Shown here: positions 6,763-43,664 of the stretch, piece after piece
Layout of the letters: every line of letters begins with the position of its first letter
Numbering within the stretch: the first letter of the stretch is position 1
Assembly: GCA_944351415.1 (NCBI GenBank)
Contig: CALVPQ010000009.1
Span: 1-53,509, forward strand
Reading direction: 5' to 3'
Length of the DNA: 53,509 nucleotides
Source: an uncultured Clostridia bacterium
GTDB taxonomy: Bacteria; Bacillota; Clostridia; Christensenellales; UBA1242
Position numbers and translations under genes: made by a program
Notes under the pieces: generated by a model
What the model saw: the letters and a program-made list of their open reading frames with translations, nothing else
What the model was told of the DNA's origin: nothing
Database searches by the model: none

Positions 6763-6861
6763 GTGCGACAAAATTGTTTTGCGAGAATGCAAAACAAGAA
6801 ACTTTTGCCTTGGCAAAAGTTTCTTTCAAGCTCTCTTTGTGAGAGCTTGATTTTGTCGCAC
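6763..6861. repeat. Multi-hairpin intergenic element A (closing stem plus three hairpins)
   Basis: A perfect 12-bp outer inverted repeat (6763-6774 with 6850-6861) encloses three consecutive hairpins. They are 8 bp (6775-6796, loop GAGAAT), about 13 bp with a tiny loop (6797-6824) and 9 bp (6827-6849, loop TTTGT). Almost every base is paired, giving a four-way-junction fold. It lies 24 bp after the stop of the flavodoxin-ferredoxin gene and upstream of the metK promoter. The layout matches the elements at 20220 and 42557, but this copy lacks their shared 24-nt box. Confidence 0.7.
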
Positions 6862-6884: not shown

Positions 6885-7802
6885 TTAAACCTTCACAACT
6901 TCTTCATCTTCTTGTTCTTCGTTTTGAACAATTTCACCACGAGCTTTAGCTATTTTTTCGTTGCATCTATTAAAATATTTTATGTATGATTTTTTACAAT
7001 ATTTTTTATGTGCATCTTCTTCATAGTCATTAGGATTATTAAAATTATATGCACCATTAACCTTCCATTTTTCAAATAATCCTATTTTTATTGCGCTCTT
7101 AGGGCAAAAGAAGGAACATCTCATGCACATAATACAATTTTTGCCAAAATGAAACTCTCCATTTTCAACTGTTATATTATGCGTTGGGCAAGTGCTTACA
7201 CACTTATTGCAATGAATACACTTATCATTAACCTTATATTGTTTACCATTAAATCTGCCACCCCAAAATTCAATACGGAATAGCCATGCAATAAAACTTC
7301 CCATAAATACCCCAGAAAGCTTAACAGGTATATTATTTAGAATTTCCTTACAATCAATCGGTATAACCTCTTTGGCTGTTGCCCACATCTTATATGCCAT
7401 ATTGTCGGTATGACGGAAAATAATATTATATGGCATAACATAATGATATTCGTTAGTGACAATATACCCCTTTTTCTTTAAAATCTTTTTTAACTTTATC
7501 GATGAGATATTGTTAAGTTTTAACGGCTCGCCTGATGTTTTAATAATAAAAACTTTTTTACCATCAACATTTTTTAAACTTTTAGCAAACTTAAGAATTA
7601 TAGATGGTGCATTAAAAGCATGAATAGGATACCCTATTCCTATATAATCATAGTTATTTACATCAAAATTAAAATTATTATCTTCTATCTTATATGTATC
7701 AACCTCGCAGCCGTTATCTTCAAAAGATTCAACAAACTTGTTTACAACTTTTCTTGTATTGCCTGTGCCAGAAAAATAACAAATTAAAATTTTCATCATC
7801 AT
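6885..7802 (-). CDS. EFR1-type protein: flavodoxin domain plus two [4Fe-4S] clusters
   Basis: The 305-residue protein has an N-terminal flavodoxin-like fold with the FMN phosphate loop SGTGNTRKV at residues 11-19 and GIGYPIHAFNAP near 55-66. Two ferredoxin cluster motifs follow at residues 195-205 (CIHCNKCVSTCP) and 223-234 (CIMCMRCSFFCP). Proteins with this architecture are electron carriers of uncertain partner in anaerobes. Three ATG codons in a row (7802, 7799, 7796) follow an AAAGGA site; the second or third is best spaced. The gene begins 5 bp after the SDR gene at 7808-9352, so the two are probably co-transcribed and may act in the same redox step. Confidence 0.85.
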   Translation of the reverse strand: MMMKILICYFSGTGNTRKVVNKFVESFEDNGCEVDTYKIEDNNFNFDVNNYDYIGIGYPIHAFNAPSIILKFAKSLKNVDGKKVFIIKTSGEPLKLNNISSIKLKKILKKKGYIVTNEYHYVMPYNIIFRHTDNMAYKMWATAKEVIPIDCKEILNNIPVKLSGVFMGSFIAWLFRIEFWGGRFNGKQYKVNDKCIHCNKCVSTCPTHNITVENGEFHFGKNCIMCMRCSFFCPKSAIKIGLFEKWKVNGAYNFNNPNDYEEDAHKKYCKKSYIKYFNRCNEKIAKARGEIVQNEEQEDEEVVKV

Positions 7803-10861: not shown

Positions 10862-10972
10862 AACCATTCCCCTAATTCCTTTATTTAACAATATACATTA
10901 TCTTTAAAGATTTTATCTATTCAAAACTACAATCATATTATAATGTTCTTTTTTTTATTTCACCTATTTTCT

Positions 10973-11168
10973 TGGAGCTAACGGCGGGAATCGAACCCGC
11001 GACTACGTCACATACTTTCTTCGTTTGCAACTTGCCTTCTGCAAGTCTTTTCGAAGCGAAAGTATGCTTCTTTCCCCACAAATCTGCCTTATTTGTGGGT
11101 GCCCCATCGACAGGTCGCGGATTTGCTTTGTTTTTCTTTTTTTTCTTTATTTGTTTTTATATTTTTTT
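10973..11168 (-). repeat. tRNA-Thr-derived tandem unit 1 (196 bp)
   Basis: The unit begins with a 31-bp exact copy of the 3' end of tRNA-Thr (T arm, acceptor 3' strand, discriminator and CCA). A hairpin-rich core follows: an outer imperfect stem of about 13 bp with an inner GACTTGC/GCAAGT(T/C) hairpin, then a CCCACAAAT/ATTTGTGGG hairpin. Next is an inverted 15-bp copy of another tRNA segment (11106-11120) and a T-rich tail. This copy differs from the other two by a few substitutions, so it is probably the oldest. The region 10892-10972 before it holds nothing recognisable. Confidence 0.85.
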
Positions 11169-11364
11169 TGGAGCTAACGGCGGGAATCGAACCCGCGACT
11201 ACGTCACATACTTTCTTCGTTTGCGACTTGCCTTCCGCAAGTCTTTTCGAAGCGAAAGTATGCTCCTTTCCCCACAAATCTGCCTTATTTGTGGGTGCCC
11301 CATCGACAGGTCGCGGATTTGCTTTGTTTTTCTTTTTTTTCTTTATTTGTTTTTATATTTTTTT
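11169..11364 (-). repeat. tRNA-Thr-derived tandem unit 2 (196 bp)
   Basis: This unit has the same organisation as unit 1 and is virtually identical to unit 3. It starts with the 31-bp tRNA 3'-end copy and contains the inverted 15-bp tRNA segment at 11302-11316. CCGCGAC and GTCGCGG near its ends can close the whole core into one branched structure. Confidence 0.85.
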
Positions 11365-11558
11365 TGGAGCTAACGGCGGGAATCGAACCCGCGACTACGT
11401 CACATACTTTCTTCGTTTGCGACTTGCCTTCCGCAAGTCTTTTCGAAGCGAAAGTATGCTCCTTTCCCCACAAATCTGCCTTATTTGTGGGTGCCCCATC
11501 GACAGGTCGCGGATTTGCTTTGTTTTTCTTTTTTTCTTTATTTGTTTTTATATTTTTT
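11365..11558 (-). repeat. tRNA-Thr-derived tandem unit 3 (194 bp)
   Basis: This unit directly abuts the 3' end of the true tRNA-Thr gene. It is two bases shorter than unit 2, apparently in the homopolymer T tracts. The inverted 15-bp tRNA segment is at 11498-11512. ORFs that read through these units are artefacts of the repeat. Confidence 0.85.
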
Positions 11559-11634
11559 TGGAGCTAACGGCGGGAATCGAACCCGCGACCTGTCGATTAC
11601 GAATCAACTGCTCTACCGACTGAGCCACGTTAGC
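11559..11634 (-). tRNA. tRNA-Thr, anticodon CGT
   Basis: On the minus strand the acceptor strands GCTAACG and CGTTAGC pair over 7 bp. The D arm contains GGCTCAGTCGGTAGAGC. The anticodon arm GTTGA-TTCGTAA-TCGAC gives anticodon CGT, and the T arm has CGGGTTCGATTCCCG. The discriminator is T, followed by an encoded CCA. It reads the threonine codon ACG. The gene is followed immediately by three tandem units that each repeat its last 31 bases. Confidence 0.95.
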
Positions 11635-20219: not shown

Positions 20220-20371
20220 ATTTTTAGTCTAACTTAAACGAAGAAAAAGAGCGGCGGAATATAATGCAAATTTTTTTTGCATTATCATAAGAAAACATTA
20301 TGGTTTTCTTATGAAATTTTGTTTACAAAATTTATTCCGCCGCCCTGTTCTTACTTACAAGATTTTTTATT
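20220..20371 (+). repeat. Multi-hairpin intergenic element B (24-nt box, closing stem, three hairpins, AT-rich tail)
   Basis: The element starts with a 24-nt box (20220-20243), followed by a 7-nt spacer. An 11-bp closing stem, GC-rich at its base, pairs 20251-20261 with 20333-20343. Inside are three hairpins: 9 bp (20262-20284), 12 bp (20285-20314) and about 8 bp (20315-20332), with no unpaired linkers. After the stem, 20353-20371 matches the 26-bp repeat found after element C at 15 of 19 positions. The box matches the one at 42557-42580 at 22 of 24 positions. It sits between clpC and hpf, 52 bp after the clpC stop. Confidence 0.75.
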
Positions 20372-35252: not shown

Positions 35253-38200
35253 ATGAGAAAGATTTTTAAAGTTCTATCTTATTCTCTGCTTTATTTAATT
35301 ATTTCAATAGCATCAGCTTATGGTGTTATTACTATTTCGATGAATAATTACAATAAATCACAAAATCCTGATGACCCTACAGTTGTTGTTGCTGAGGAAA
35401 TAACAACCATGATAAACCATATAACTAGTTCTAGTGCTTTGGGGCTTGACCTTGATATTGAAGTTGGAGCAAGTGGGCAGGTTTTTGATATTGCTATTGA
35501 TGGAAATATCGACTTCTCAGATGGTTTTGAAAACTTGGCGGTAGATGCTATTATTAATGTTGCTCTTAGTCAAGATAGCTCCTTTGATATTGGTGTTGTA
35601 TATAAAGATGGCAACTTATATTTTGAACTTCTTAATAATAAGTTCTTTATTGAAACTGATAACTTAATGACTTCGCTAAATCAAGTTCTTGGACTTGTTG
35701 GTGTTGAATTGCCTGATATTGACAGTATTTTAGGTTCCCTTAGTCTTGATAGCATTCTTGGTATGCTTTCAAATTTCGAAGAAATCGTTGCTGAAGATGG
35801 CTCTCTTATACTGCAAGTTGCCCTTCCAGTTGTGGAACAAATTAATCTTATATGCACTCCTGAATATAAACTGACAGGACTTAGCCTTCCACAAGCAACT
35901 ATTGAAGGTGTTGAGCTCGCTGTGAATGGTGATATAGACTATCCTGAAGAAGTTATAATTGAAGATGAAGATAGTTCAAACTATATCAATCTTACAAATG
36001 TTATCGACCTTGCCTGTGGTATTATTGACTTTGCTTCCCAAGAACAAATCGGGCTTGAATATAATGTGGTTTATAATAATATAGACCTTGCAGGACGAAT
36101 TGATATTAATATGGCAAGCAAAGCCGTTAGAATTACTCTTGGGCTTGACCAATTAGAGGCTAATTTAATCTTTATTGATAATACACTATATCTTGAAGCC
36201 TACAATATCTATGCTAAGTTTAGCATTGGGCAAGTGGGAGAAGTTGTGACTTTAGTTGAAAAATACTTTAACTTTGACTTGCCTGATGAATTAATTGCAA
36301 GTGTTGTTTCTGCTATTGAAAGTGGTGACTTTAGCGAATTGCTTGATAGTTTTGAATTGCCTGCAATTGACCTTGGCTCTATTGACCTTTCTATTCTTGA
36401 AAGTATTGTTAAAAATGGTGATGTTACTTCTATCTCTATTGCAGATATTGGTAAGATTGATGTGACTTTAAGTGATGGGAAACTTAGCTCTATTGGTTTT
36501 AATGGGCTTGGCGCTAATGCTCTGCTTAGCACAACAAACTTTACTGACTTTGCTTTAACTACTGCTACTGAAAACTACATTGACATTGCTAAACTTATCC
36601 CTACCCTTGATAATATCCTTGCTATTCTACAAAACAACACATTCTCTGGAAGTGCAGTTATCACTTACAAAGAATACAGCTTTGATGTTAACTACACTAT
36701 CCACACACGTGAAAACAACAAGTTTATCACCCTTTCAACTAGTGTGTTTGGACAAAACATTAAACTTAATATCTTTAATAACAAAGCATACCTTGAAATA
36801 AGTGAAACTAAACTTGTTTGCCAGCTTAATAACCTTGAAAATGTTATCAATAAGGTTCTTGCAACTTTTGGTGTTGAATTTGATAGTTCTTCACTAACTG
36901 ATGGGCTTAAGAGTTTAATCAATAGTGAAATCAATCCACTTTTAATCACAAGCTTTATTGAAAATGAAAATGGTATCTCTATTGCTTTGCTTGATAAACT
37001 TACAATAACTTTAACAAATGCTACAAACGAGCTTAAACTTGATGCAAACTATCAAGACTTAACAGTTAGTGCAAATGTTATTGGCAGTGAGCAAGAACTT
37101 ACTGTTCCAGTTATTACAGAAAGTCAATACTCACCTATTGAAGATATTGTTGATAGTGTGATAAATGTGTATGACTACGTTCTAGCTAAAACTTTCTATC
37201 TAAGCTTTGATGCAAGCTATCAAGATATTAAAGTTGAAGGTGCTTTAAATTATGATGTTAATGGTCTTTCAGCTACTGCTACACTTACCTATCAAAGTTT
37301 AACTGCAAATGTTATGCTTTATGAAAACAAAGTATACATTACAGCAGAAAATATTAAACTTGTGTTCAACTTAAGTGATATTGACTATGTTAAGACCTTC
37401 TTAAATCAATACTTTGGTGTTGATGTTGAGGGTATGCTTAATGAAATCTTAGGTAAGGTTGGAATTAACCTTAATAGTGAAGAAGATAGTGATATGCTTT
37501 CTAGCATATTAAATGGACTTGATATTGAAGCTTTACTTAGTGGTGCTACATTTAATATCTCTACAAACTCTATTACCCTTTCTGCTCTTGATGGACTTGG
37601 TGTTAATATTACTCTTGTAGACAAAATGATTAACAAAATTAATGTTAATTATACAATTACTGGTGAGAATGAAGAGCAAACAACAATTTCAGCAAACCTT
37701 TCAATTGAAAAGGAAATTAATAAATTCTCTGTTGCAGATGAAAGTGAATATATTGATGTTGTTGAACTTCTTGATATTGTAAAAGCATTTATTGACTTTG
37801 CTTCCCAAGAACAACTAGCTATGAATTATCAAGTTAGCTATGACGAATTAATTTTAAGTGGTAAACTTGACTTAAATATTGCAGAAAAAACCGCTAAATT
37901 ATCAATCAACTTAAATGATAGTATAAAGGCAAACGTAATCTACTCAGATGGTATGCTCTACTTTGAAGCCTACAATATCTATGCTAAGTTTAGCATTGGG
38001 CAAGTGGGAGAAGTTGTGACTTTAGTTGAAAAATACTTTAACTTTGACTTGCCTGATGAATTAATTGCAAGTGTTGTTTCTGCTATTGAAAGTGGTGACT
38101 TTAGCGAATTGCTTGATAGTTTTGAATTGCCTGCAATTGACCTTGGCTCTATTGACCTTTCTATTCTTGAAAGTATTGTTAAAAATGGTGATGTTACTTC

Positions 38201-41200
38201 TATCTCTATTGCAGATATTGGTAAGATTGATGTGACTTTAAGTGATGGGAAACTTAGCTCTATTGGTTTTAATGGGCTTGGCGCTAATGCTCTGCTTAGC
38301 ACAACAAACTTTACTGACTTTGCTTTAACTACTGCTACTGAAAACTACATTGACATTGCTAAACTTATCCCTACCCTTGATAATATCCTTGCTATTCTAC
38401 AAAACAACACATTCTCTGGAAGTGCAGTTATCACTTACAAAGAATACAGCTTTGATGTTAACTACACTATCCACACACGTGAAAACAACAAGTTTATCAC
38501 CCTTTCAACTAGTGTGTTTGGACAAAACATTAAACTTAATATCTTTAATAACAAAGCATACCTTGAAATAAGTGAAACTAAACTTGTTTGCCAGCTTAAT
38601 AACCTTGAAAATGTTATCAATAAGGTTCTTGCAACTTTTGGTGTTGAATTTGATAGTTCTTCACTAACTGATGGGCTTAAGAGTTTAATCAATAGTGAAA
38701 TCAATCCACTTTTAATCACAAGCTTTATTGAAAATGAAAATGGTATCTCTATTGCTTTGCTTGATAAACTTACAATAACTTTAACAAATGCTACAAACGA
38801 GCTTAAACTTGATGCAAACTATCAAGACTTAACAGTTAGTGCAAATGTTATTGGCAGTGAGCAAGAACTTACTGTTCCAGTTATTACAGAAAGTCAATAC
38901 TCACCTATTGAAGATATTGTTGATAGTGTGATAAATGTGTATGACTACGTTCTAGCTAAAACTTTCTATCTAAGCTTTGATGCAAGCTATCAAGATATTA
39001 AAGTTGAAGGTGCTTTAAATTATGATGTTAATGGTCTTTCAGCTACTGCTACACTTACCTATCAAAGTTTAACTGCAAATGTTATGCTTTATGAAAACAA
39101 AGTATACATTACAGCAGAAAATATTAAACTTGTGTTCAACTTAAGTGATATTGACTATGTTAAGACCTTCTTAAATCAATACTTTGGTGTTGATGTTGAG
39201 GGTATGCTTAATGAAATCTTAGGTAAGGTTGGAATTAACCTTAATAGTGAAGAAGATAGTGATATGCTTTCTAGCATATTAAATGGACTTGATATTGAAG
39301 CTTTACTTAGTGGTGCTACATTTAATATCTCTTCAAACTCTATTACCCTTTCTGCTCTTGATGGACTTGGTGTTAATATTACTCTTGTAGACAAAATGAT
39401 TAACAAGGTTAATGTTAACTATCAACTCACTGATGGGGAAAATAGTTCTGCCATTAATGCAAATATCACTGTTGAGCAGATGGCTAGTATCTTTAATCCT
39501 GTTGGCGATTATACCGATGTATCAACTATGCTAAGCTATGTTGAACTACTTTTAGATTATGTTAATACTAAAAAGATGCAATTTGGTATAAATGTAAACT
39601 ATGGTGAAAAGAATATTACAGGAAATGTTCAACTTGATATAACTTCTATGCTTCTTATGAGTGCTAGTTTAAGTTCAGAAGATATTGAAAACTTTGACTT
39701 GAATGCAAATATTGAAAATGGCATGTTCTATATTGACTATAGTGGACTTTGTTTGAAGATTGATAATGAAAACTTTAAAGAACTTATCGTTATTGTGCTT
39801 GAAGTTTTAGGTATTGATTCTAATAGTATACCTTTCCTTGAAAATGTTGACCTTGGACTTGATTTCTCTCAAATTGAAACAGACATTGCTTCTCTTGAAA
39901 TTAGTATTGATGACATTGTGAATATCTTAAAGTTGGTTAAAGGTATTGAATTAAAGGATAATAGTCTTGATATAATACTTGACGGAAAATCAATCTATAA
40001 TAACCAAAATGCAAGTGATATGATTATTTCGCTTACTAAGGAAAATGGTGCTATCAAATCTTTGACACTTTCTAATATCTACCTTGACGACACTCTTGAA
40101 ACAAAGATTGATGTTACACTCACCTTTGAAACATTAAGCAAATTTAACTACGTTGACCAAAACAAGAATTATATTGATATTTCTGGCTCAAACGAACTTG
40201 TTAAAGCACTTATCAATATGACAATTGATACAGACTTCCATGTTCAAGGCTCATTTGATATTATCGGTTCTCTTGCTGGTTTTGATATTTCTTGGAATGT
40301 TCCTTTTGATTTCAAAATCAACGTTGTGGGCAAGGGAGATATTGAACTTTATGGTGTTATTGGTGAAATCCCAGCTATGATTGGTGTTAATAATGACGTA
40401 CCTCCACAGGTTGGTGACACAGAAAGCGGTTCTGACAGATACCTTTATATCTATTATAAAGCTGGCTATGTTTATTTCTATAGAAGCGAAAAAGTTGATA
40501 TTATGTTTGGTATTAGCTCTCGAACTTATGAAAAGTGCACTAAAATTTCGATTGATACCCTTCTTGCTGACCCATTCTATTATATTCAATACTGCTTTGG
40601 TTTTACTGATACAATTATGAAAGCTATTAAGGATTCTATGAATAATCCACGCACTGAGCCTATGGACTTTGGTAATATCATATATTCTTTCACAGTTCTA
40701 GACAACAAGAATTTCACAATCAACCTTAATATGCGTGAACTTACAAATAATCCTGACCTTGATAGTTTAATTGTTTCTCTTGGAATTAAAAAAACAGCTG
40801 AAGGGAAAAATTATGTTGGTAAACTTCAACTTAGTTTATATATGCCACTTGCCGATATATTCACTCTTACTCTTTCTACTTCTGATACTCAAATCGTTGA
40901 CTATGGAACAGAAGTTGATATGAGCCCACTTTATGACTTTATCAACAACTATAAATACGGAAATGAAACTGAGTGGGAAGCAAGTAATGGTAATTGGGAG
41001 ATGTCTAGTGAAATTCTTTATCAAGTAAATTTTGTGACAAATAGTAGTGAAACTATTGAAACACAAGATTATCATTATAAAGATGGACTTAATTTACCTA
41101 CACTTTCTGACTATGTTGTTGACGATGGGATAACACACGTGAATTATCACTTTGCTGGCTGGTATGAAGATGAAACTTTTACAACAGAGTTTACAAACGA

Positions 41201-42239
41201 TACCATGCCTAGAGGAGATATAAACTTATATGCTAAGTGGGAACTTACAACTAAAAATTACTATACAATAGATTTTGTTACTTATAGTGACGATAAAATT
41301 GATAGTATAACTAAACTTGAAGGCGAAAGTATAAACATTCCTACACTTACAACAAAAGAAGTTACAGAAGAAAATTTCACTTCATACTACGAATTTGCTG
41401 GTTGGTATACAAGTGGAGATTTTGCTGAAGGCACTTTATTCAATTCAAATATAATGCCTTCTCGCAACACCACCCTTTATGCCAAGTGGAACTTAATAAA
41501 AACTGAATATACACGTCTGGTTAATGTTTATGATGGTGAAGAACTTCTATTGTCAGAACGTTTTAAAGTTGGAGATACAATCGACTTCTCATCTATAGAA
41601 AAAGTGAATGATACAACCAAGTTCTATCTTGACTCATCTTTCACTACAGAGCTAACCAACTTTACAATACAAGATAAAGACCTCAATATTTATATAAGAA
41701 ATATGTATACATTAACCTTTACAAGTGCTTATGGCAACACTAAAACTGTTACACTGCAACTCTATCAAGGCGAAAATATTACCGACAAAATACCAGAACA
41801 AGCAAGTTATGTTTACGATGATGGCACACAAACAGCACAAATAACTTATACTTTTAATGGCTATAATAGCGATACAGTTATGCCGAATCATGATGTTACT
41901 TATAGTGCAGATTGGAATGTTGATGAAAAACTTTATTACACAGTTTCATTCGACCTTAGATGGTATCTTGTTCTTGGTTGCACAGCTGGTAGCAAGATGA
42001 AGGATTCCCCTAGTCCTATCGCTTCGTTCAAAGAGTTAGAAGGAACAACTATTGATTTGAAACAGTATGCACCTACCTGCACAGCTTATTTGACTGCATT
42101 CCCAATAGATGCAAAAAACTTTAAAGCAACATCTTGGGGAACAAGTGCTTGGGGAGATTACACTGATGGTGGAAGCGGATTCACATCAATAACTATCACT
42201 GGCGACACAACCTTGTATGCTTGTTGGGAAAGAGTTTAA
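35253..42239 (+). CDS. Giant surface protein with repeated beta domains and C-terminal InlB B-type repeats
   Basis: The 2328-residue protein has an N-terminal signal or anchor segment (residues 7-28). About 1880 residues of repeated beta-rich domains follow, each with a long hydrophobic helix pair and a short strand phrase like NTLYLEAYNIYAKF or NKAYLEISETKL. These look like LolA/LppX-type half-barrels, inferred from pattern. From about residue 1922 come Listeria-Bacteroides (InlB B) repeats: FAGWYEDETFTTEF with LYAKWEL, FAGWYTSGDF with LYAKWNL, then diverged copies ending LYACWERV. No LPXTG motif is present, so anchoring is probably N-terminal. Residues about 314-794 and 904-1384 are near-identical. 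An AAGGAG site precedes the ATG. Confidence 0.8.
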   Translation: MRKIFKVLSYSLLYLIISIASAYGVITISMNNYNKSQNPDDPTVVVAEEITTMINHITSSSALGLDLDIEVGASGQVFDIAIDGNIDFSDGFENLAVDAIINVALSQDSSFDIGVVYKDGNLYFELLNNKFFIETDNLMTSLNQVLGLVGVELPDIDSILGSLSLDSILGMLSNFEEIVAEDGSLILQVALPVVEQINLICTPEYKLTGLSLPQATIEGVELAVNGDIDYPEEVIIEDEDSSNYINLTNVIDLACGIIDFASQEQIGLEYNVVYNNIDLAGRIDINMASKAVRITLGLDQLEANLIFIDNTLYLEAYNIYAKFSIGQVGEVVTLVEKYFNFDLPDELIASVVSAIESGDFSELLDSFELPAIDLGSIDLSILESIVKNGDVTSISIADIGKIDVTLSDGKLSSIGFNGLGANALLSTTNFTDFALTTATENYIDIAKLIPTLDNILAILQNNTFSGSAVITYKEYSFDVNYTIHTRENNKFITLSTSVFGQNIKLNIFNNKAYLEISETKLVCQLNNLENVINKVLATFGVEFDSSSLTDGLKSLINSEINPLLITSFIENENGISIALLDKLTITLTNATNELKLDANYQDLTVSANVIGSEQELTVPVITESQYSPIEDIVDSVINVYDYVLAKTFYLSFDASYQDIKVEGALNYDVNGLSATATLTYQSLTANVMLYENKVYITAENIKLVFNLSDIDYVKTFLNQYFGVDVEGMLNEILGKVGINLNSEEDSDMLSSILNGLDIEALLSGATFNISTNSITLSALDGLGVNITLVDKMINKINVNYTITGENEEQTTISANLSIEKEINKFSVADESEYIDVVELLDIVKAFIDFASQEQLAMNYQVSYDELILSGKLDLNIAEKTAKLSINLNDSIKANVIYSDGMLYFEAYNIYAKFSIGQVGEVVTLVEKYFNFDLPDELIASVVSAIESGDFSELLDSFELPAIDLGSIDLSILESIVKNGDVTSISIADIGKIDVTLSDGKLSSIGFNGLGANALLSTTNFTDFALTTATENYIDIAKLIPTLDNILAILQNNTFSGSAVITYKEYSFDVNYTIHTRENNKFITLSTSVFGQNIKLNIFNNKAYLEISETKLVCQLNNLENVINKVLATFGVEFDSSSLTDGLKSLINSEINPLLITSFIENENGISIALLDKLTITLTNATNELKLDANYQDLTVSANVIGSEQELTVPVITESQYSPIEDIVDSVINVYDYVLAKTFYLSFDASYQDIKVEGALNYDVNGLSATATLTYQSLTANVMLYENKVYITAENIKLVFNLSDIDYVKTFLNQYFGVDVEGMLNEILGKVGINLNSEEDSDMLSSILNGLDIEALLSGATFNISSNSITLSALDGLGVNITLVDKMINKVNVNYQLTDGENSSAINANITVEQMASIFNPVGDYTDVSTMLSYVELLLDYVNTKKMQFGINVNYGEKNITGNVQLDITSMLLMSASLSSEDIENFDLNANIENGMFYIDYSGLCLKIDNENFKELIVIVLEVLGIDSNSIPFLENVDLGLDFSQIETDIASLEISIDDIVNILKLVKGIELKDNSLDIILDGKSIYNNQNASDMIISLTKENGAIKSLTLSNIYLDDTLETKIDVTLTFETLSKFNYVDQNKNYIDISGSNELVKALINMTIDTDFHVQGSFDIIGSLAGFDISWNVPFDFKINVVGKGDIELYGVIGEIPAMIGVNNDVPPQVGDTESGSDRYLYIYYKAGYVYFYRSEKVDIMFGISSRTYEKCTKISIDTLLADPFYYIQYCFGFTDTIMKAIKDSMNNPRTEPMDFGNIIYSFTVLDNKNFTINLNMRELTNNPDLDSLIVSLGIKKTAEGKNYVGKLQLSLYMPLADIFTLTLSTSDTQIVDYGTEVDMSPLYDFINNYKYGNETEWEASNGNWEMSSEILYQVNFVTNSSETIETQDYHYKDGLNLPTLSDYVVDDGITHVNYHFAGWYEDETFTTEFTNDTMPRGDINLYAKWELTTKNYYTIDFVTYSDDKIDSITKLEGESINIPTLTTKEVTEENFTSYYEFAGWYTSGDFAEGTLFNSNIMPSRNTTLYAKWNLIKTEYTRLVNVYDGEELLLSERFKVGDTIDFSSIEKVNDTTKFYLDSSFTTELTNFTIQDKDLNIYIRNMYTLTFTSAYGNTKTVTLQLYQGENITDKIPEQASYVYDDGTQTAQITYTFNGYNSDTVMPNHDVTYSADWNVDEKLYYTVSFDLRWYLVLGCTAGSKMKDSPSPIASFKELEGTTIDLKQYAPTCTAYLTAFPIDAKNFKATSWGTSAWGDYTDGGSGFTSITITGDTTLYACWERV
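36193..37636 (+). repeat. Internal direct repeat, copy 1 (1444 bp) within the giant gene
   Basis: This block recurs at 37963-39406 (offset 1770 bp). I found a single base difference (37563, giving Thr versus Ser); I compared it by eye, not by alignment. Identity drops sharply outside both ends. Confidence 0.88.
37963..39406 (+). repeat. Internal direct repeat, copy 2 (1444 bp) within the giant gene
   Basis: Second copy of the block at 36193-37636. Silent sites are also identical, so duplication or gene conversion was recent. The flanking 326 bp between the copies are a diverged domain of the same type. Confidence 0.88.
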
Positions 42240-42241
42240 TT

Positions 42242-42277
42242 AAAAAAATAACAGAGATAATTCTCTGTTATTTTTTT
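42242..42277. terminator. Bidirectional terminator after the giant gene
   Basis: A 15-bp perfect stem (42242-42256 with 42263-42277, loop ATAATT) has A and T runs. It serves the giant gene (plus) and the small minE-like gene (minus), whose stop codon it overlaps. Confidence 0.85.
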
Positions 42278-42509
42278 AAGGTTTTATATATCCGTAAGGT
42301 TTTATGCGCTCGGCAGAAAACTCTATCCAAAAAGTGCTGTTTTTGTTCTTTTCCTTTCTAAATCGCACTTTTATATCACTATTAAGCTCTATATAACTTT
42401 CTATTAGTGGTTTTAATTCATCTTCTAACACTTCACATATATGCTGTGGGTCTGGCAATTTATCATTCCTTAAAATATTATTCATTCTTCTTTCTATTCT
42501 ATATTCCAT
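42276..42509 (-). CDS. Possible MinE (cell division topological specificity factor), diverged
   Basis: The 77-residue protein has a charged N-terminal helix (EYRIERRMNNILRNDK). A helix with Pro at its start (PDPQHICEVLEDELKPLIESY) follows, then two strands, IELNSDIKVRFRKEK and STFWIEFSAERIK. That order and spacing fit the MinE topological domain (PE-helix, YVxID..I.V.., then a final strand). It lies downstream of minD on the same strand, the usual place for minE. However, 360 bp with a multi-hairpin element and tandem repeats separate them, and sequence similarity is weak. An AAGGAG site precedes the ATG. Without a structure prediction I hold this only as a possibility. Confidence 0.42.
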   Translation of the reverse strand: MEYRIERRMNNILRNDKLPDPQHICEVLEDELKPLIESYIELNSDIKVRFRKEKNKNSTFWIEFSAERIKPYGYIKP

Positions 42510-42556: not shown

Positions 42557-42674
42557 ATTTTTAGGCAAACTTAAACGAAGTGATAAAGGCACAAAAGTGT
42601 AAGCGATAAGCTTACAAAAGAAAGCAAGACTTTCTTTTAAAAATTAAATGAAATTTAATTTTTGCTTTTGTGCC
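42557..42674 (+). repeat. Multi-hairpin intergenic element C (24-nt box, closing stem, three hairpins)
   Basis: The 24-nt box at 42557-42580 matches that of element B at 22 of 24 positions and is followed by a 7-nt spacer of the same length. A 10-bp closing stem pairs 42588-42597 with 42665-42674. Inside are three hairpins: 7 bp (42598-42616, loop GATAA), 8 bp (42617-42637) and 11 bp (42639-42663, loop GAA). The stem sequences share nothing with element B, but the layout is the same. The 42510-42872 gap contains only this element and the tandem repeat that follows. Confidence 0.75.
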
Positions 42675-42680
42675 GTTTTT

Positions 42681-42784
42681 TAATACAACTTATAATATCT
42701 CTTATTTAATACAACTTATAATATCTCTTATTTAATATAACTTATAATTTCAATTATTTAATACAACTTATAATGTGAGTTATA
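42681..42784 (+). repeat. Four-copy 26-bp tandem repeat after element C
   Basis: Copies begin at 42681, 42707, 42733 and 42759. The first two are identical over 26 bp; the third and fourth differ at several positions. All keep ACTTATAAT. The tail of element B (20353-20371) is 15/19 identical to part of this unit, suggesting that it belongs to the element and was amplified here. Confidence 0.85.
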
Positions 42785-42872: not shown

Positions 42873-43664
42873 TTATACATGTTTTTTTAAATTACGTTTT
42901 ATATAACCCATAAGCCCACGGTATTTATATGTGCAATCAAAGATTTTTTTTGAACCATTATGAATATTTTCGCTTAAAAGAGTAAATGCCCTTGCGCTTT
43001 CTATTGACTGAACTCTTCCACCAAGTGAGTTTGATGCCCCTATCGCATCATCTTCTGGAATAACACCAAGAAGGGGTAAATTCAGGGCTCGGACTATATT
43101 TTCAACACTCATCACCTCACCATTTAATAGTAAATCCCCACGCATTCTGTTTATGACTAACCCTTTATATTCAATATCATATTTGTCTAAAAGTCCAATA
43201 ACTTTATCAGCATCACGAATTGATGAAAGATGAGGAGTTACAACTATTAAGGCTTCGTTTGCGGGAAATACCGCTCTATGAAAGCCCGCTTCAACACCTG
43301 CTGGGCAATCTATTAGAATATAGTCAAAACTAGAGTCAAGTTGCTCTATAACACTTTTAATATGTTCGCCCATTATATTTGTTTTATTATAAGCATGAGC
43401 TGATGGAAGAATATAAAGTGATGAAATATTTTTATCTTGAACAAGAGCTTGTCTTGCTCTACATCTTCCCATTATAACATCTGTTATATCAAATACAACT
43501 TGTTCTTCAACCCCCATAACTACATCAAGATTGTTTAGCCCAATATCCACATCAAAAAGAACCACTCTAAACCCTAATTTCGCTAAATTTATACCTAAAT
43601 TTGCACATATTGTTGTTTTACCAACACCACCCTTTCCGCTTGTTAAAACAATCTTTCTTGCCAT
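42873..43664 (-). CDS. minD: Septum site-determining protein MinD
   Basis: MinD is a membrane-binding ATPase that helps place the division septum. The 263-residue product has the deviant Walker A motif GKGGVGKTT at residues 10-18, FDVDIGLNNLDVVMG near 38-52, ILIDCPAGVEAGF near 115 and VTPHLSSIRDADKVIGLL near 140. The C-terminal 16 residues (YRGLMGYIKRNLKKHV) form an amphipathic basic helix, the membrane-targeting sequence. No minC is adjacent. A possible minE lies 360 bp downstream. Confidence 0.94.
   Translation of the reverse strand: MARKIVLTSGKGGVGKTTICANLGINLAKLGFRVVLFDVDIGLNNLDVVMGVEEQVVFDITDVIMGRCRARQALVQDKNISSLYILPSAHAYNKTNIMGEHIKSVIEQLDSSFDYILIDCPAGVEAGFHRAVFPANEALIVVTPHLSSIRDADKVIGLLDKYDIEYKGLVINRMRGDLLLNGEVMSVENIVRALNLPLLGVIPEDDAIGASNSLGGRVQSIESARAFTLLSENIHNGSKKIFDCTYKYRGLMGYIKRNLKKHV

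Follow-up and report, generated by a model that had tools for sequence, protein, structure and literature searches.

Interspersed palindromes are usually found through sequence similarity, and covariation is usually read as a sign of RNA. MITEs are small, palindromic, non-coding and patchily distributed. The cloverleaf element described here shares these features, lies in intergenic DNA and carries a terminal inverted repeat, but it differs from MITEs in that neither a target duplication nor a parent transposon was found and that its single copies look maintained. The BOX elements of Streptococcus pneumoniae (boxA-boxB-boxC) are short, dispersed, present in high copy number in few close species and slow in present movement, and their ends are paired as a duplex round an inner module that varies in number (PMC3049150). 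Our element resembles them in being short, dispersed, high-copy and lineage-limited, with ends paired round an inner part; BOX modules, however, are found by sequence models and show terminal repeats and target duplications, whereas our element has a fixed shape with mostly free letters, and no target duplication of the BOX or MITE kind was seen at its flanks. REP sequences and BIMEs, together with RAYT, are presented as interspersed extragenic palindromes, mobile in the past and proposed to act on DNA topology (gyrase) (PMC3733652). The cloverleaf element is also an interspersed extragenic palindrome. A REP is a single palindrome of 20–40 bp with a GTAG-type tag, while our element has four helices in about 80–130 bp; the GTAG tag was not among the motifs from a flank motif search, which gave a degenerate CG-containing motif, and the Y1 (HUH) transposase of RAYT (Y1_Tnp, PF01797) had no match in this genome (G000) or in its nearest relative (G202), the two genomes richest in elements. 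Like the multi-stem-junction RNAs of Rfam, the element has a four-way junction backed by covariation, but it is built almost only of Watson-Crick pairs and does not show the G-U tolerance of structured RNAs. Neither a four-armed interspersed element nor repeats in this bacterial family were found in the full-text literature, a search that mostly excluded subscription papers. The cloverleaf family would work like REP/RAYT and BOX/MITE elements without passing the tests that define them, and we take it to be a new form of interspersed palindromic element.

The window, that is, the whole stretch analysed, comprises 53,509 nt of contig CALVPQ010000009.1 from an uncultured Clostridia bacterium of UBA1242, a family in the order Christensenellales described as gut bacteria with reduced genomes (PMC12306168). 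The element in focus is a four-way junction at 42588..42674 (+), which scores 44.9 bits with model R1, built from one member, and 56.6 bits with model R2, built from 16 members of this genome. Its closing stem of 10 bp (42588–42597 paired with 42665–42674) surrounds a first hairpin of 7 bp (42598–42616), a second of 8 bp (42617–42637) and a third of 11–12 bp (42638–42664). Pairing is free of errors, almost no base is unpaired at the junction, and the fold is stable as RNA; a T-run follows the closing stem. A box of 24 nt (42557..42580, +) lies 7 nt (42581–42587) before the closing stem and corresponds to a degenerate CG-containing motif in other members. The anatomy of the original prediction (24-nt box, 7-nt spacer, 10-bp stem and three hairpins) was thus borne out, with 11–12 bp for the third hairpin. 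Directly upstream of the element, in the gene's own reading direction, is a MinD-like ATPase gene (minD; 42873..43664, −; Pfam CobQ/CobB/MinD/ParA). On the other side lies an ORF of 77 aa (42276..42509, −) which has no Pfam match and is called minE-like from its position and its resemblance to ORFs after minD in other members of the genus. The gene and the ORF (both −), with the element between them, run in one direction, and a convergent setting is ruled out, since minD and the minE-like ORF are on the same strand. A BLAST search of phages and plasmids with the element gave no match, and a viral search with a neighbouring protein found no relative. Rfam gave no match on the elements of the window (gathering scores) or at 18 loci (E 0.05), which is consistent with the earlier statement that no named element with this layout is known.

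Two further copies are present in the window. The second, at 20251..20343 (+), lies between a clpB-like gene and an S30AE/HPF-like gene, and its orthologue in G202 (locus L106) has two-sided stem changes. Its upstream box (20220..20243, +) is nearly identical to that of the 42588 element and is followed by the same 7-nt spacer, while the stems are different; both boxes match TTTTAGNCNAACTTAAACGAAG with 0 mismatches, just as had been predicted for this pair. The third copy, at 6763..6861 (−), lies downstream of a ferredoxin/flavodoxin-like gene (6885–7802) and has the same layout as the other two without their box; the matching site in G202 holds one long hairpin only. Adjoining this copy is a SAM riboswitch (RF00162, 6596–6683) before an S-adenosylmethionine synthetase gene. 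The three-hairpin junctions of the window score 37, 39 and 40 with our scanner, and 200 dinucleotide shuffles of the whole window yielded 4 such junctions in all, with a top score of 29. The cloverleaf folds of the window are not chance.

These folds belong to a family dispersed through the genome as intergenic elements of about 80–130 bp, each with a closing stem round three abutting hairpins. Scanning 20 stretches of this genome (378,300 bases) gave about one fold per 25 kb, while the best score in one shuffle was 26. With the window included (431,809 bases), 19 distinct three-hairpin members with a score of at least 29 were obtained, and the number rose to 33 once the loci from pattern, DNA and model searches were added. 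G202, whose ClpB in L106 is 97% identical, has 54 three-hairpin members in 791,202 bases, and three shuffles each of the stretches of both genomes contained no such fold under the same settings. One locus with four weak AT hairpins (L025:6020) was dropped as probable chance. Among the 85 members scoring at least 32, the closing stem is 9–15 bp in 76 (maximum 31 bp), hairpin stems are 6–12 bp in 246 of 255 and loops are 3–4 nt in 221 of 255. The hairpins usually follow one order: the GC-richer one comes first, one whose two arms are A-rich and T-rich second, and an AT-only one third; some members have no clear order. The inner closing arm is usually A-rich, e.g. GAAAG. The closing stem forms a terminal inverted repeat, and no element of this genome and 2 elements of G202 lie inside ORF calls of at least 90 aa.

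A sub-type with the closing motif GGCAAGCGAATG or a near form of it has copies that are more alike and closing stems of up to 31 bp. It occurs at L072–L075 in this genome and at L217, L222, L233, L236, L244, L247 and L249 in G202. A paralogous ORF for a secreted protein (MSLKVKLIS...; its later part in L222) lies near the elements of L072, L073, L217, L222, L233 and L236; the neighbour is another secreted protein in L074 and a terminase-like ORF in L075. G202 also contains a repeat of about 890 bp (L214:7934–8824), comprising the start of a secreted-protein gene with a cloverleaf in its upstream region, which recurs at full length in L249 (92%) and partially in L213, L225 and L232.

The original prediction held that the shape rather than the sequence is under selection, and covariation supports this. 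In the 16 members of this genome, 98.9% of the cells are paired and two-sided change is seen in 37 of 39 pairs. Their covariation of 0.905 compares with 0.208 for shuffles and with no more than 0.212 once the partners are slid. The proposed covariance-model search recovered many further copies in related genomes and in this one. The A9 set comprises 40 members, located in 39 of the 40 loci that were searched; they come from 23 other genomes outside model building. In this set 96.9% of the cells are paired, 38 of 39 pairs have changed on both sides, and covariation reaches 0.895, whereas shuffles give 0.186 and sliding gives 0.153 at most. Because a model supplied the members and the alignments follow the structure, these results rest mainly on the comparison with the slid and shuffled controls. 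The number of pair types, 109 against 103.3 in shuffles, does not exceed the controls, as 43 of 500 shuffles reach 109. Mean pairwise identity in A9 is 47%, with a weak consensus (an A-rich inner closing arm and an AT-only third hairpin). Since the shape is conserved and the letters are not, the family would largely be missed by sequence-similarity search.

We compared the 33 elements of this genome copy by copy with the 791,202 bases of G202. Both flanks were matched for 23, and some of these matches are short: in two cases one flank matched over 95 and 92 nt, respectively. The four-helix fold is kept at 19 of the 23 sites, in 5 of them with one or two mismatches. The other four are 6763 with its single hairpin, L028:17724 with a different element, L070 with none, and 42588, whose orthologue has the same four helices and, in the second hairpin, 71 loop nucleotides where 42588 has 5. 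In the 19 pairs, with these four left out, 10.0% of stem positions (153/1532) and 45.4% of loop positions (104/229) differ, where the loops stand in for the neutral rate. The cells of these pairs, classed only roughly because the alignment is blind to structure, comprise 656 the same, 42 with two-sided change, 37 mismatched, 18 with a single change or G-U, 23 gaps and 2 unchanged non-pairs; the mismatched, single-change or G-U and gapped cells beside the two-sided ones mean that intermediates exist. At the sequence level, this comparison of two species shows that a copy is usually kept in place, with stems that change little and partly on both sides and loops that change much. Of 16 pairs that were scored, one has the whole element turned round between flanks of unchanged direction (reverse-complement score 112 vs 66), which would be expected of arms that meet as DNA. 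The other 15 are not inverted, one of them being the site with a different element.

Taken together, we favor the reading, at a probability of roughly 0.55, that the cloverleaf is a once-mobile, REP/BOX-like dispersed palindromic DNA element that is now kept by selection on its DNA fold. RNA, remains of a MITE and mutational upkeep each explain part of the data. Under the first of them, a structured RNA, the cloverleaf would be transcribed within mRNAs, either in 3' regions or in the spaces separating cistrons, and would stabilise the message or act as a processing site or an attenuator. Such a role would agree with the strong covariation, with the stable RNA folds and with the position of copies between same-strand neighbours (minD and the minE-like ORF; clpB-like and hpf-like genes). 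It would also be suited by the unequal orientation in tandem gene pairs, 24 vs 6 (12 vs 3 in this genome alone), for which p = 0.0014 is too small because orthologues in both genomes were counted, and from which 21 A-type elements of ambiguous orientation were set aside. However, constraint at the RNA level should tolerate G-U pairs, and constraint on both DNA strands folding does not. Internal G-U pairs, away from stem ends, make up 17 of 2161 pairs (0.8%) in the elements, against 26 of 310 (8.4%) in 66 predicted terminator-like hairpins of the same DNA taken with the same scanner, 61 of 1028 (5.9%) in 47 tRNAs of this genome and relatives, and 16.7% in hairpins of shuffled DNA. They are thus about tenfold rarer than in the terminator-like hairpins and sevenfold rarer than in tRNAs, and in A9 they occupy 12 cells beside 47 other non-pairs. 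The scanner behind most members requires unbroken stems, so the scan set is biased to perfect folds; the model-based sets and the partner sites in G202 are less biased.

The gene contexts and the flanks also speak against an RNA. The tandem/convergent/divergent contexts resemble the background, at 20/7/3 against 120/31/31 in this genome (the 42588 element being tallied as convergent there because the 77-aa ORF falls below the size limit) and 33/5/7, plus 2 inside ORF calls, against 197/63/67 in G202. Flank composition revealed no uniform T-tract, though single copies such as 42588 have a T-run, and an intrinsic terminator found no clear support in contexts or T-content. With no Rfam match on the elements in addition, we consider the RNA unlikely. 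The near-absence of G-U argues against it and points to pairing that is probably kept in DNA, and a DNA structure would agree with pairing that is strict in both strands. The element may form a cruciform, of which strict pairing, short loops and the in-place inversion would be indirect signs. Of the three guesses made originally, the structured RNA therefore lost ground with the near-absence of G-U, the cruciform gained from the strict pairing, and the mobile element stands as past mobility, which the patchy spread favors.

Mutational upkeep, in which template switching or hairpin-templated repair copies arm onto arm and palindromes stay perfect without selection, would produce the two-sided changes and leave G-U no commoner than other non-pairs, and the in-place inversion and extended flanking palindromes suggest interacting arms. 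Alone, however, it should let stems drift at the neutral rate, which the divergence of 10% in stems and 45% in loops does not fit, and G-U pairs do persist in the terminator-like hairpins of this DNA. We regard it as improbable.

The preferred reading of a once-mobile DNA element draws on the spread across lineages. Copies lie scattered between genes; some lineages of the family have many, and at the same loci in close relatives none were found. In the gap between minD and the minE-like ORF, the element occurs in 2 of 29 readable loci of the genus, this genome and G202 only, where it was recognised through orthologue comparison and not by the scan. These loci come from the best 30 of 75 matching genomes; three have less than 700 nt behind the gene, and no gene was found in one of the 30 (L278). 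An AT-rich scan hit 434 nt downstream in L263 was judged chance. The gap between the clpB-like and HPF-like genes was read in 28 of 80 ClpB loci, and 2 of these besides the window have the element, in the same orientation in L106 (G202) and in the opposite one in L110; a hit in L117 that starts inside the end of clpB was judged chance. When all 80 ClpB loci (1.19 Mb) were scanned generically, 5 of them contained 6 folds in total, and one shuffle gave none. R2 matches were found in 31 of 247 genomes of the family, its own included, in 4 of 297 of an order sample, all of the same family, and in 1 of 348 of a phylum sample, this genome itself; R2, whose members all come from this genome, counts too few divergent members, as with a junction in G100 that it missed, and searches over 40 genomes used strict filters. 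The spread is patchy and, within the samples searched, limited to one family, and such patchy, lineage-specific presence fits past mobility.

Among 19 genomes tested for a Y1 transposase, 9 of them carriers, 2 matched, both carriers: G216 with a stop inside and G246 with a fragment. No IS110 transposase was found in any of the 19, G000 and G202 included, and both transposases were rejected as the mobiliser since the two richest genomes lack them. The flanks carry no direct-repeat signal of a target duplication, the longest shared word being 6.47 against 6.53 in mismatched flank pairs; a repeat noticed by eye at L023:16392, about 9 bp long, did not hold across flanks generally. Flank pairs with inverted matches of at least 9 nt make up 14% of the total; the controls give 6%. 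No clean empty site was found. Past mobility is read from the distribution only, because target duplication, clean empty site, Y1 and IS110 are all lacking. A lack of the palindrome nuclease SbcD might be permissive for such elements. SbcD did not reach the curated cut-off in any of 19 genomes (G000 and 18 relatives), and weak matches occurred in 14; a missing SbcD was set aside as the cause, as these weak matches occur alike in genomes with and without R2 matches. It is very improbable that the copies are inert MITE-like remains, spread by a lost transposase, functionless and slowly decaying, for although the patchy amplification (6 junctions in 5 of 80 ClpB loci; 31 of 247 family genomes), the lineage-specific presence and the damaged Y1 matches in 2 of 9 carriers would suit them, most copies are undecayed, 19 of 23 matched sites keeping the fold while loops differ by 45%, and there is no target duplication nor, in the two richest genomes, a Y1 or IS110 transposase.

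The box had been put forward as a signature of the family, and this was not confirmed. The near-exact box occurs 2 times in this genome and was not found in 146 relatives with up to 2 mismatches allowed. Many folds have a degenerate motif with a CG step ahead of them, at the end where the GC-richer hairpin lies; by eye this motif is sometimes doubled, with copies about 36 nt apart. The flank motif scored 100 against 46–49 in letter shuffles, which were given fewer restarts than the real run. The corresponding matrix gave 66 hits of at least 12 bits, of which 21 lie within 60 nt before a fold, a share that is not independent because the matrix was built from these very sites, and 45 lie elsewhere; many folds have no degenerate box. 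The box was therefore rejected as a signature, its near-exact copies being only two and the degenerate motif only partly linked to folds, and is a degenerate side motif of the cloverleaf elements. The repeat tail at 42679..42774 (no strand assigned) is likewise outside the element. A 26-bp AT-rich repeat is indeed present, as predicted, but in 3.7 copies rather than four, and it is a separate minisatellite, since the orthologous site in G202 lacks it. Other repeats were observed in the window: 10967–11634 contains 3.2 copies of a 196-bp unit, 98% alike, which adjoin and overlap the tRNA-Thr gene (11559–11634) and carry part of it, and which look like a repeated attachment-site or tRNA-fragment duplication; a predicted surface protein of 2328 aa (35253–42239) has a long, near-identical internal duplication, offset by about 590 residues by eye.

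For the once-mobile DNA element, we propose that copies would have spread in the past as non-autonomous mobile elements, as their distribution suggests. What is kept would be a fold of the DNA: a cruciform, or hairpins clustered on a strand that is briefly single. The host would keep it on account of a protein that recognises the shape or the crossovers of DNA, or of control over local supercoiling. The working mode would then resemble that of BIME/REP clusters. More tentatively, selection may act copy by copy on a four-armed DNA shape that is almost free of sequence, with covariation arising at the DNA level and the shape being read by a protein or by chromosome topology.

A long-standing question is whether cells make use of extruded DNA folds. 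If the DNA reading is true, the genomes of this family would offer dozens of natural sites each at which to ask it, and covariation can then arise from DNA. The G-U test offers a simple way to separate DNA from RNA in other discoveries based on covariation.
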